A stretch of 64,000 nucleotides of DNA from Microbacterium invictum. GTDB taxonomy: Bacteria; Actinomycetota; Actinomycetes; Actinomycetales; Microbacteriaceae. Under the pieces are notes generated by a model. It was given only the letters and a program-made list of their open reading frames with translations, was not told the origin of the DNA and did no database searches. The first letter of the stretch is position 1. Each line of letters begins with the position of its first letter. The DNA lies in assembly GCF_034421375.1 (NCBI RefSeq), contig NZ_CP139779.1, positions 2,232,001 to 2,296,000 of the forward strand, read 5' to 3'. The position numbers were made by a program, and so were the translations under genes. Positions 50,099 through 53,177 of this stretch are shown here, in pieces.

Positions 50099-50112
50099 TT
50101 GACGGTCGTCAA
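50099..50112. promoter_or_regulatory. Palindrome at the LuxR gene start
   Basis: TTGACGGTCGTCAA, a 5-bp dyad around GGTC. It coincides with the predicted TTG start codon. It may be an autoregulatory site or chance. Confidence 0.3.
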
Positions 50113-51682
50113 TCCGTCGTCGCACCAGCCCGAAGCGACACACCGAATCACGTTCACGCAGCAATCGTCTCCGGAGGACGAAGAGAGTGGATGGCTCGCC
50201 GCCTTCCGCCACGGAGATCACGCCCTCCGCGCCTGGGTCCTGTCCCACCCGCCCGAGGTGTGGTCGCGTGATCCGGGCCTCCTCCTGGCCATGGCCGCCA
50301 CGTACCGATGGGAAGGTGAGGCAGGCACCTGGCGAGCCCTGCCCTACCTGGAGAAGGCCGAGGCTCTGATCGAGGAGAACCCGTCGACGCCTGCTCGGCT
50401 GAGGGCGACCGCTGCACTCCTGCGATCGATGAACGAACGCTCCCGAGGCGACCTCGACGCGGCGTTCGACTATGCCGAACGAACGCTCGGCATCCTGTCC
50501 TCGGCGCACAGCGAGGTCCGCGACCGCCTCGACCTGCGCTCGGCGGCCCTGCTCAAACGCGGGACGATCCGGATGCTGCGAGGCGAGTTCCACCAGGCCC
50601 GGCTTGACCTCGAGCAGGGTCTGCGAGACGCTGACTCCGACCTGACTCCGAGAAAGCGGGTAGAGGCTCTCGGGTTCCTCACGATGGTCGAGTTCTTCAC
50701 CGGAAGCATTCCCGACGCCGTGCGCGTGCTCCGTGCGGCACGACCCATCGCCGACCGCATGCCCGGCGGCCTCTGGTCCGCCCCACTGGAGATCGCGGAA
50801 CTGCTCATCGCCGCGGAACGTGGCGAGCTCGCACGACATGCTGCAACTCTTGATCGACTCGCGACAGACGTGGAAGGCTCCGAGTTCGAGTTCCTCGCGC
50901 AGCACCTGCGGATCCTGCTCGCCGAGGAGCTCGGCGATCTCGACGGTCGCTTCGATATTGTCCGCCGCATGCGCACACTCGAGCGTCAGGGCGCGGGTGC
51001 GGAATTGCTTCGCCTGCTGCGCACGGGCGATCGTGCCGCCGCACTGCTGGACTCGGGAGATCTCACTCGAGCCAACATCGTCTTGCGCGGCGACCACGAT
51101 CCAGGTCACCTGATCTGCATGGCGGCGCTGCGTGCACGAGCCGCCCTCGCCATCGGGGATGCTCGCGGCGCGATCGTGGAAACCCGATCATGCGTACTCG
51201 ATGAGGACCATCCCACCCGTTCGCTGCTCGCCTCAGCCGCCGTGGAGGCGGAGGCTCGGGTCGCGCTCGGCGATTTGGGCTCAGCGGACGCGACATTCCG
51301 ACACCTGCTTCGTGAGTGCGCCACCGGCGGCACCTTCCGCGTGTTCCGCACCATCCCCGGGCGAGTACTCGCACGGCTGGTCGCTCGCGCCGACGGGCGA
51401 ACCGACCTCACGACGGCGGAGCGAGCGGTGCTGGACGTGCTCGCGGCTTCGCTCGATGCGCCTGAGCCCGATCGGAGCGCCGCGGTGGCGCTCACGCCGC
51501 GTGAGCACGTCGTGCTGGCTCGGCTGGCGGCCGGAGAATCTCCCCGGGCGATCGCCCACGCTCTCCACGTGTCGCTCAATACGGTCAAGTCTCAGCTGCG
51601 CAGCGCCTACCGCAAGCTCGGAGCCACATCCAAGGCCGGAGCCGTCGAGCGGGCACAGAGCCTCGGATTACTGACCGCCTGA
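50099..51682 (+). CDS. LuxR-type regulator with TPR-like sensor region
   Basis: 527 aa. The C-terminal LuxR helix-turn-helix (about 465-525) reads LTPREHVVLARLAAGESPRA, IAHALHVSLNTVKSQLRSAY, RKLGATSKAGAVERA. The N-terminal 440 residues are helical repeats resembling the MalT/TPR region, without a P-loop. The TTG start follows GGAAGG by 10 nt and overlaps the stop of a 6-codon ORF (ATG at 50082). It ends at a perfect terminator. It is not part of the Rv1691-Rv1713 order, so it came with the adjacent cassette or independently; it may regulate it. Confidence 0.85.
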   Translation: MTVVNPSSHQPEATHRITFTQQSSPEDEESGWLAAFRHGDHALRAWVLSHPPEVWSRDPGLLLAMAATYRWEGEAGTWRALPYLEKAEALIEENPSTPARLRATAALLRSMNERSRGDLDAAFDYAERTLGILSSAHSEVRDRLDLRSAALLKRGTIRMLRGEFHQARLDLEQGLRDADSDLTPRKRVEALGFLTMVEFFTGSIPDAVRVLRAARPIADRMPGGLWSAPLEIAELLIAAERGELARHAATLDRLATDVEGSEFEFLAQHLRILLAEELGDLDGRFDIVRRMRTLERQGAGAELLRLLRTGDRAAALLDSGDLTRANIVLRGDHDPGHLICMAALRARAALAIGDARGAIVETRSCVLDEDHPTRSLLASAAVEAEARVALGDLGSADATFRHLLRECATGGTFRVFRTIPGRVLARLVARADGRTDLTTAERAVLDVLAASLDAPEPDRSAAVALTPREHVVLARLAAGESPRAIAHALHVSLNTVKSQLRSAYRKLGATSKAGAVERAQSLGLLTA

Positions 51683-51693
51683 CGAAGGATCAC

Positions 51694-51732
51694 CGGAAGG
51701 GCCGGGAGGGAATTCTCCTCCCGGCCCTTCCG
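51694..51732 (+). terminator. Terminator of the LuxR gene, 16-bp perfect stem
   Basis: Arms 51694-51709 and 51717-51732 are fully complementary, with a 7-nt loop and no T run. It lies 12 nt past the stop and insulates the glycosyltransferase cassette from the LuxR gene. Confidence 0.85.
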
Positions 51733-51898
51733 CTGTGCCCCCCTCCCGGGGGGGGGTCGCCCGCTTCACCCTTGCGCCACCCCAGCCACCTCCCCGGTCA
51801 CCCACTTTCCCTCCGTGAAACGCTCCGGATCCCACACATTCCCTCCCCTCCTCATCCGACCGTTCGAGTTGGACTGATGGTCGCCGAAAGGAGACGCA

Positions 51899-52942
51899 AT
51901 GCTGTTCGCAGTCATCCCCGCCCACAACGAGGAGGCAGGCATCGCCCATGCCGTCCTCGGGCTGCAGCAGCAAACTACTCCGCCGGACCACATCGTGGTC
52001 GTTCCCGACAACTGCACGGACTCCACCGCCGCCATCGCCGCGGAGCTGGGTGCGGATGTCTGGCCGACGACGGAGAACACCGCGAAGAAGGCCGGTGCCC
52101 TCAATCAGGTCCTGGCGGTGATGCTGGAGGAGTTGGAAGACCACGACCTGATCCTCGTTCAGGACGCCGACTCCGCTCTCGACGAGGCATTCATCGCCAC
52201 GGCGCTGCGCGAGCTCGCCTCCCCCCGCATCGGCGCCGTCGGGGGCGTTTTCCGCGGTTCTGAGGGAGGCGGGTTCGTCGGGCACCTGCAGCGGAACGAG
52301 TACGCGCGGTACGGGCGTGATGTCCGCCGGCTAGAGGGCAAGTGCCTCGTGGTCACGGGAACAGCCGCCGTCATGCGCGTCGGGGTGCTTCGTCGGATCA
52401 GTCTGGCCCGTGCGAAGGGCCTGCTTCCCGCCGGTGACGGGCACGGCGGTGTCTACGACACGACGGTCCTCACCGAGGACAACGAACTGACCTTCGCCAT
52501 CAAGCACCTCGGCTACGAAGTCTTGAGTCCTGCGGGATGCACGCTGACGACTGAGATCATGCCGACGTGGGGAGAGCTATGGCGCCAGCGTTTGCGGTGG
52601 AAGCGCGGTGCGGTGGAGAACTGCGTGCAGTACGGGCTGACGCGGGTGACGTGGCCGTACTGGGGGCGGCAGCTGCTGACAATGGCGGGATGCGTCGTGA
52701 CCTACCTGTATCTGGCGACCATCGTCTTCGCCGTCGTGACGGGGCAGTTAGGCCTGCAGCCATTCTGGCTGTGCGTCACGGCGATCTTCGTGGTCGAGCG
52801 TGTCGTCACCGTACGGGACCGCGGCTGGCGCTACATGCTGCCCGCCGCACTGATGTACGAACTGCTGCTGGACGTCTTCCTGCAGCTGGTCCACACGAAG
52901 GCTTACCTCGACGCGCTGACCCGACGTCAACGCGCCTGGTAG
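51899..52942 (+). CDS. Membrane GT2 family glycosyltransferase
   Basis: 347 aa. GT-A fold from residue 1: AVIPAHNEE (4-12), DNCTDST near 37, DAD (89-91), TED (192-194) and QRLRW (230-234), the Q/RxxRW motif of processive beta-glycosyltransferases such as hyaluronan, chitin and PNAG synthases. Three membrane helices follow at about 258-281, 287-302 and 311-331; there is no N-terminal helix. It is short for a synthase. AAAGGAG lies 5 nt before the ATG. It is followed 18 bp later by the 59-aa gene. Probably makes or transfers a membrane-linked sugar; acceptor and sugar are unknown. Confidence 0.9.
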   Translation: MLFAVIPAHNEEAGIAHAVLGLQQQTTPPDHIVVVPDNCTDSTAAIAAELGADVWPTTENTAKKAGALNQVLAVMLEELEDHDLILVQDADSALDEAFIATALRELASPRIGAVGGVFRGSEGGGFVGHLQRNEYARYGRDVRRLEGKCLVVTGTAAVMRVGVLRRISLARAKGLLPAGDGHGGVYDTTVLTEDNELTFAIKHLGYEVLSPAGCTLTTEIMPTWGELWRQRLRWKRGAVENCVQYGLTRVTWPYWGRQLLTMAGCVVTYLYLATIVFAVVTGQLGLQPFWLCVTAIFVVERVVTVRDRGWRYMLPAALMYELLLDVFLQLVHTKAYLDALTRRQRAW

Positions 52943-52960
52943 GGGGAAAAGGAGACCCAC

Positions 52961-53140
52961 ATGTACAACGACGCCATCTCAGCGACGGGCGCGGGAGCGG
53001 GAGCGGGAGTGCTCGCCGCGACCGGGTTCGACTCGCTCTGGCTCGGCCTTGCCGCGTTCGCTCTGATCGCTGCGGGCACCGCGGTGATGCGCATCGTGCC
53101 GCGTCGGCGGCGCGCCCTCGCGCATACCTCGTCGGAGTGA
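52961..53140 (+). CDS. 59-aa peptide with LAATG sorting-like signal
   Basis: MYNDAISATGAGAGAG at 1-16, then VLAATG (motif 18-22), a hydrophobic helix (about 26-43) and RIVPRRRR (44-51) with a short tail. LAxTG plus helix plus positive tail is the class E sortase signal layout. There is no signal peptide, and the segment before the motif is only 17 residues and Gly/Ala rich. The ribosome site AAAAGGAGACCCAC closely copies that of the preceding glycosyltransferase gene. The stop lies inside the downstream terminator. Alternatively it is a small membrane subunit of the GT2 enzyme. No family recognised. Confidence 0.8.
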   Translation: MYNDAISATGAGAGAGVLAATGFDSLWLGLAAFALIAAGTAVMRIVPRRRRALAHTSSE

Positions 53141-53177
53141 CGAGAAGGGGGATGCCGTGCATCCCCCTTCTCGTCAC
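53137..53177. terminator. Bidirectional terminator, 17-bp perfect stem
   Basis: Arms 53137-53153 and 53161-53177, 7-nt loop. It includes both the stop codon of the 59-aa gene (plus strand) and the stop of the HAD gene (minus strand). Confidence 0.88.

Follow-up and report, generated by a model that had tools for sequence, protein, structure and literature searches.

A candidate minimal polysaccharide synthase of actinobacteria: a membrane glycosyltransferase gene paired with that of a 59-residue LAxTG protein

Why should a gene for a membrane glycosyltransferase be followed by one for a protein of only 59 residues that carries a sortase-type motif? The question is raised by a locus of Microbacterium invictum (Actinomycetota; Microbacteriaceae), which lies in a stretch of 64,000 nucleotides (the window; NCBI RefSeq assembly GCF_034421375.1, contig NZ_CP139779.1, positions 2,232,001 to 2,296,000 of the forward strand) of a complete genome of 3.53 Mb. 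A preliminary description, made from the letters alone, had noted a family 2 glycosyltransferase (GT2) with DAD, TED and QRLRW motifs and, 18 bp past its stop codon, a 59-codon gene with LAATG, a hydrophobic helix and RRRR, both preceded by nearly identical ribosome-binding sites, and had suggested that the two form a system. The open reading frames (ORFs), the spacing and the motifs were all confirmed, and the two copies of the site AAAGGAGAC, one just 5' of each start codon, are the only ones on either strand of the 64 kb (0.21 copies expected). The features, in window coordinates, are as follows (pLDDT, predicted local distance difference test).

51899-52942, forward strand: gene of the GT2 membrane glycosyltransferase, 347 residues (Pfam PF13641, E 1e-19; PF00535, E 9.9e-19)
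52961-53140, forward strand: gene of the 59-residue single-helix partner protein
51887-51895, forward strand: AAAGGAGAC, ribosome-binding site of the GT2 gene
52948-52956, forward strand: AAAGGAGAC, ribosome-binding site of the peptide gene
52163-52171, forward strand: DAD motif, residues 89-91, invariant in 42/42 aligned sequences
52472-52480, forward strand: TED motif, residues 192-194, invariant in 42/42
52586-52600, forward strand: QRLRW, the QxxRW motif, residues 230-234; Q230, R231, R233 and W234 invariant in 42/42
52961-53011, forward strand: N-terminal tail of 17 residues, starting Met-Tyr, without a signal peptide
53012-53026, forward strand: LAATG, a class E sortase-type motif, residues 18-22
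53027-53095, forward strand: predicted helix, residues 23-45 (model residues 377-399, pLDDT ~72)
53090-53113, forward strand: RIVPRRRR basic tail, residues 44-51; Arg44 invariant, Pro47 in 47/48
51694-51732, no strand assigned: perfect inverted repeat (hairpin) in the gap between a LuxR-type gene and the pair (-39.5 kcal/mol, z -6.6, equalled by 0/200 shuffles)
53137-53177, no strand assigned: perfect inverted repeat over the stop codon of the peptide gene, with convergent genes on either side (-39.4 kcal/mol, z -8.2, equalled by 0/200 shuffles)

The comparison of GT2 relatives drew on the best 80 of at least 304 confirmed in named genomes, and on the 22 genomes, among 299 of Microbacteriaceae, whose GT2 match reached E <= 1e-60. 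In the GT2 tree the window's enzyme falls in a clade of 42 rows (clade A; support 100/100) with members from Microbacterium, Rathayibacter, Micromonospora, Promicromonospora, Arthrobacter and kin, Amycolatopsis, Streptacidiphilus, Actinomycetospora and Geodermatophilaceae, those closest to it coming from Rathayibacter and Microbacterium; Herbiconiux, which was excluded from the tree, also has the pair. At 33 of the 35 clade-A loci in named genomes, a small gene of the Met-Tyr (MY) type lies 1-69 bases past the GT2 stop codon. In L096 such a gene follows an interrupted GT2, which brings the pairing to 34/35, and the sole locus lacking the small gene, L097, is a GT2 fragment. A search independent of the GT2, made with a profile of 48 peptides at E <= 1e-6, gave matches in 16 of the 396 genomes searched within the order. 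Five of these matches are ends of longer LPxTG proteins; the other 11, one of them the window's own, are small ORFs, and each of the 11 adjoins a GT2 gene. The suggestion that the two genes form a system was thus borne out by profile search and gene neighbours. GT2 plus LAxTG peptide is a constant pair in several actinobacterial families, a partnership well supported at the level of sequence, and the two proteins very probably act together. The clade-A pair is rare among the Microbacteriaceae (seen in 3 of 299 genomes), and yet it covers several families, so that it seems either to be mobile or to be lost often.

Two loci depart from the usual layout. That of Herbiconiux (L063, 2141-6698) has a second GT2 gene and, as read by eye, a lipoprotein-like gene upstream of the pair, and its GT2 frame has ~180 extra N-terminal residues resembling a decayed second GT2 domain. 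In L056 (genome G046) the GT2 is extended at its C-terminus by two hydrophobic stretches, the end reading GRLVPVRTF, and a search downstream showed no separate partner. These stretches looked like a fused partner, but the likeness to the peptide helix was not significant (the peptide-helix profile scored -2.7 bits, and 3178 of 4824 scored shuffles did equally well or better) and was not counted as evidence of a complex.

The layout of the 59-residue protein is MYNDAISATGAGAGAGV-LAATG-helix-RIVPRRRR. Its alignment comprises 48 distinct sequences, 13 from the protein database and 35 from the window and the other loci; starts were set at Met-Tyr where possible, which makes Met1 as the true start partly the analyst's choice. 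Unchanged in all 48 are Met1, Tyr2, Leu18, Leu30, Ala31, Ala41 and Arg44. LAxTG occurs in 45, LAYSG in 2 and neither in one (L075), with eight different residues at x. LAATG is kept even in the distant loci L092 and L159, the latter with a GT2 that is 38 percent identical. The L159 peptide (around 1495-1701) has two LAATG copies, 10 residues apart. A profile search of the protein database returned 282 clusters at E <= 1e-5 among the candidates scored; in 121 database proteins, a biased sample consisting of the best-scoring ones, MY was found within the first 30 residues of all 121, LAxTG in 120 and LAMSG in 1. The nearest named peptide to the window's is P0002, from an unclassified Microbacterium. 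Uncorrected ratios of non-synonymous to synonymous differences (pN/pS) ranged from 0 to 0.38 across all 19 chosen pairs, and by this measure the peptide is under purifying selection. Sixty random windows drawn from a first-order Markov model of the window contained zero ORFs with LAxTG, a hydrophobic helix and a basic tail. A chance ORF is ruled out by the purifying selection, the random windows and the conservation together. Conservation beside the GT2 and purifying selection, on which the preliminary description had made its proposal depend, are both present.

The positive-inside rule governs the orientation of membrane proteins. Among the 47 rows with LAxTG or LAxSG the N-tail has no charged residue in 35, a single acid in 7 and a single base in 5, and such an uncharged tail, together with the basic C-terminus, suggests by that rule that the peptide lies with its N-terminus out and its C-terminus in.

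The GT2 has the DxD, TED and QxxRW motifs of processive enzymes of its family, and its C-terminal residue, Trp347, is invariant in the alignment of 42. The structure model containing it (pLDDT 82.8) resembles PcManGT and the hyaluronan and cellulose synthases, with a GT-A domain and membrane helices in the predicted fold; the same likeness was seen for a second member, modelled less confidently (pLDDT 72.6). From these models the window's GT2 is predicted to be a hyaluronan/cellulose-synthase-like enzyme. The N-terminal helix pair of processive GT2s is absent from it, and none was seen in clade A when the sequences were read by eye. The NCBIfam models of exosortase-associated glycosyltransferases, TIGR03111 and NF053846, gave weak matches to the enzyme (17.3 and 23.5 bits).

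Four sortases are encoded in the window's genome: one of class E (NF033747, 230.6 bits against a cut-off of 160) and one of class C, both over their cut-offs, and two that are nearest to class F and fall below the cut-off. All 13 pair-bearing genomes tested, three LTYAG ones included, have at least one sortase, its class being set for the window's genome alone. With class E substrates the 59-residue protein shares the LAXTG motif and the hydrophobic helix with basic tail, and its genome encodes a class E sortase; it has no N-terminal signal peptide, so it was not filed as an ordinary member.

What the small protein might do for the enzyme is illuminated by a sister clade of the GT2 tree (clade B; 20 rows, support 100/99, almost all Microbacteriaceae). 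Its members too have a small single-helix partner at the same place, with the consensus GILLPESxLxSDxFAVLATFVAINTVMYAALAxAKILPK and later RRxETRSIYP (17 aligned) and no LAxTG, whose gene, with the starts chosen, overlaps the GT2 stop codon at 16 of the 18 loci. Read by eye, the clade-B enzymes possess ~120 N-terminal residues with two hydrophobic stretches, which clade A is without; that the peptide stands in for a missing N-terminal helix was considered and dropped, because clade B has both these stretches and a small partner. A small single-helix partner seems to be general for these GT2s. LAxTG is confined to clade A and to the outlying L092 and L159, the tree position of L159 being flagged as a possible long-branch join; L093, joined to L159 in the tree, has a small partner without LAxTG. 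In L090 (1991-3304) a GGDEF domain is fused to a partner-like stretch that scores 53.5 bits with the clade-B profile, an arrangement that suggests control of the sister synthase by cyclic di-GMP (c-di-GMP); EAL and GGDEF genes adjoin in L089, and at the other clade-B loci too little flank was available to look for c-di-GMP genes. The preliminary description had held that the peptide may be a small subunit of the enzyme, and this is favoured by the clade-B partner, the complex itself being something that we infer; the small protein is probably a membrane subunit of the GT2.

We therefore propose the following reading only as a model. The pair would constitute a minimal polysaccharide-synthase unit of actinobacteria, in which the 59-residue protein would be a small membrane subunit of the GT2, in a role comparable to that of PgaD beside PgaC, no common ancestry being implied. 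It would insert with its short, nearly uncharged N-tail outside and RIVPRRRR inside, an orientation for which no signal peptide would be required. LAxTG would then sit at the outer face of the helix, so that the class E sortase could cleave the Thr-Gly bond and transfer the MYNN..LAxT peptide to the cell wall; this cutting would attach the synthase, or what it makes, to the wall or would mature the complex. That a sortase cuts the small protein in clade A is fairly likely, and the full chain, in which a polysaccharide synthase has a mini-subunit like PgaD and the class E sortase acts on the outward N-tail of that subunit, has slightly better than even prospects.

Several observations weigh against this model. 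By inspection no signal peptide was found in the small protein, MYNDAISATGAGAGAGV having neither a basic start nor a hydrophobic core; the preliminary description had remarked on this oddity, and on the mere 17 residues before the motif, and was right on both counts. The L075 peptide lacks LAxTG, and those of L154, L155 and L156, all of one genus, read LTYAG in genomes that nonetheless encode sortases. The best NCBIfam match of the GT2, the PgaC/IcaA equivalog TIGR03937, scored 65.9 bits against a cut-off of 422.3. In fused GT2-peptide models the peptide helix had a pLDDT of ~72 in one and of 52-59 in the other, the docking was not reproduced, and a single-chain fusion favours contact anyway; the first model aligned with the yeast chitin synthase Chs1 over ranges extending to residue 406-411, into the peptide helix, and this was not repeated with the second, less confident one. 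The two types of partner aligned over the helix and the RIVPR/KILPK end with a weak hhalign score (probability 12.9, E 0.0022).

Neighbouring genes in relatives bear on the product. Among 40 loci compared (39 with flanks of up to 5 kb, and the window), a secreted protein of one similarity cluster, of the glycoside hydrolase family 16 (GH16) type, was found in 22: 17 of Micrococcaceae, 3 of Microbacterium, 1 of Rathayibacter and 1 of Actinomycetospora. Common C-terminal repeats favour both the joining of this cluster and the comparison of its profiles. The profile of the Microbacterium, Rathayibacter and Actinomycetospora group (5 proteins, one of them Pfam GH16) matched the endo-1,3-beta-glucanase 3dgt (E 3e-72), and the Micrococcaceae type weakly matched a 1,3-1,4-beta-glucanase (E 0.0037). 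Pfam GH16 recognised 1 of 5 cluster proteins tested. At L059-L062, L066-L068, L071-L080, L083, L088, L091, L094 and L095 the pair has beside it, in varied position and orientation, a gene for a secreted protein that is GH16 or resembles it; many of these proteins carry repeats at the C-terminus. In the window's genome no GH16 domain was found by Pfam, by profile A5 (which hit repeats only) or by profile A4 (which gave nothing and had no positive control). GH16 as a fixed third component was rejected on its presence in 22/40 loci and its absence from these searches. A polysaccharide deacetylase lies near L093 and, by its sequence, near L075. The GH16-type and deacetylase neighbours are a hint of a beta-linked polymer in the relatives, and no proof of one for the window's pair.

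Other explanations are partly compatible with the proposed model and with one another. The best of them, unlikely though still serious, makes the small protein a membrane subunit of the GT2 and nothing else, with LAxTG as a structural element at the membrane edge that is never cut by a sortase. The clade-B partners without such a motif, L075 without LAxTG, the LTYAG of L154-L156 and the missing signal peptide all suit it, as does the nearly fixed Arg-Ile-x-Pro past the helix, which a sorting tail would presumably not need. However, the pattern of L, A, T and G nearly fixed with x free is what recognition by a sortase predicts, unlike helix packing, and LAATG survives in the distant L092 and L159.

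It is rather improbable that the GT2 transfers just one sugar residue, to a lipid or oligosaccharide acceptor, as is said of PcManGT in N-glycan making, with the peptide as a scaffold. This would be compatible with either answer on the sortase, but QxxRW is invariant, the GH16-type or deacetylase genes near many relatives suit a polymer, and the best NCBIfam match, though sub-threshold, is to PgaC/IcaA.

A still less probable role for the peptide is that of an acceptor or primer, the GT2 or a partner building sugar on the N-tail, perhaps on Tyr2, and the sortase fixing the glycan to the wall. The active site of the GT2 family is cytoplasmic, whereas the N-tail is expected outside, and synthases of the hyaluronan or cellulose type are not known to need a protein primer. 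Such a role would account for the Tyr that follows Met in 48/48 peptides and the MY of 121/121 best-scoring database proteins, when many later residues vary, and an actinobacterium does have a wall-anchored, glycan-bearing surface protein, GspA of Actinomyces oris (PMC6381275). We give about the same small chance to a sortase-coupled synthase, in which the growing glycan would be carried by the mini-subunit, or joined to it, at the exposed Met-Tyr-Asn-Asn tail, and the class E sortase would move tail and glycan together onto peptidoglycan; were this true, a protein-sorting enzyme would anchor a polysaccharide with no need of a signal peptide, an LCP enzyme or a lipid carrier. That the two genes are unrelated and merely share a transcript, the peptide being an ordinary small sortase substrate, is very improbable, for although class E sortases anchor several hydrophobic surface proteins and short LAXTG proteins are an NCBIfam category, all the small ORFs of the GT2-independent search adjoin a GT2, none of its 16 matches is a peptide without a GT2 nearby and, as support only since most of the loci were chosen through the GT2, the matches of the peptide profile in a set of 112 GT2 loci lie at the place after the GT2, with one weak exception (E 0.018).

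The setting of the pair was taken by the preliminary description to be an interruption, between genes that it named homologues of Rv1692 and Rv1693, of an order conserved with M. tuberculosis, with perfect terminators on either side. The interruption, seen here against loci of the same genus, and the terminators held in part. The two flanking hairpins are strong and perfect, and a scan for a stem plus T run found no terminator at either; we infer that they act as terminators. A scan of the window for sigma-70-type promoters found none, a result of little weight in a G+C-rich actinobacterium. A search of 19 same-genus genomes yielded 12 loci, the window's own included, and in 10 of the 11 others the junction is closed, with the HAD gene, a small gene and tlyA adjacent and no space for inserted genes. 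In the window, what separates the HAD gene from the tlyA-side genes is not the pair alone but the pair together with a LuxR-type regulator gene (50099-51682; GerE domain and a weak TPR-like match); none of the 11 loci compared was seen to have this regulator at the junction. L199 has ~1.2 kb of different DNA at the same junction, with the HAD gene on one side and the small tlyA-side gene on the other, which makes the spot look like a preferred site of insertion.

The small protein itself belongs near a family that already has a name. Window residues 1-53 match positions 1-53 of the 54-position NCBIfam model NF058583 (LAXTG_small_WW, 'LAXTG motif-containing small protein') at 27.7 bits against a cut-off of 65; of 16 further members of the LAxTG or MY type, 15 gave a match, likewise below threshold (24-42 bits overall), and neither of two clade-B partners did. 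The 59-residue protein is related to NF058583 without being a member. No match over the cut-off was found in the 199 and 396 genomes searched, so the gene neighbours of true members were not visible there. As a whole-genome marker the model was rejected and replaced by profile A1, because most of its listed matches were tails of long proteins, in frames of far more than 70 codons. The preliminary description knew of no described system of this form; small LAXTG proteins had in fact been named, with no function in the name, and the part that may be new is the GT2 pairing, for which no paper was found among the literature matches listed. The pair gives a gene context to relatives of this family.

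By the usual view, a sortase substrate requires a signal peptide and an exported part of some size. A conserved mini-protein with little in it besides the sorting signal, locked to an enzyme that resembles a polysaccharide synthase, would imply either that synthases have a subunit of a new class or that a glycan can be fixed to the wall by a new route; the pairing of a GT2 with a partner of 50-70 residues hints at an undescribed link between the making of a sugar polymer and the cell wall, and offers a small, testable model in soil bacteria.

Among known systems, GspA-LcpA of Actinomyces oris is alike in being a wall-anchored, glycan-carrying protein of an actinobacterium; GspA is a normal surface protein to which an LCP enzyme reportedly attaches the glycan, unlike the 59-residue protein. 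The class E sortase substrates described in the literature, the chaplins of Streptomyces (PMC5148588) and CwpA/CwpB of Actinoplanes (PMC13251363), have in common with it the LAXTG, the hydrophobic helix and the basic tail, the motif of CwpA/CwpB standing outside this comparison; it differs from them in the missing signal peptide, the 17 residues before the motif and the constant GT2 neighbour. Exosortase-associated glycosyltransferases of PEP-CTERM/exopolysaccharide systems are likewise GT2 enzymes tied to a protein-sorting signal, which here is LAxTG, for an ordinary sortase, on a mini-protein. The hyaluronan and cellulose synthases and PcManGT, a minimal cellulose-synthase-like fold with a role in N-glycan making according to a title cited in PMC10569066, share the predicted fold and DAD-TED-QxxRW with the window's GT2, which differs in having no N-terminal helix pair and in ending at Trp347. 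Nearest in arrangement are PgaC-PgaD and IcaA-IcaD, also a GT2 enzyme with a small membrane protein and with c-di-GMP genes, which in the sister-clade loci L089 and L090 are near or fused. The partner here differs in its single helix and its sortase motif, and the likeness is one of arrangement only. By this analogy the pair may work like PgaC-PgaD with a sorting signal added.
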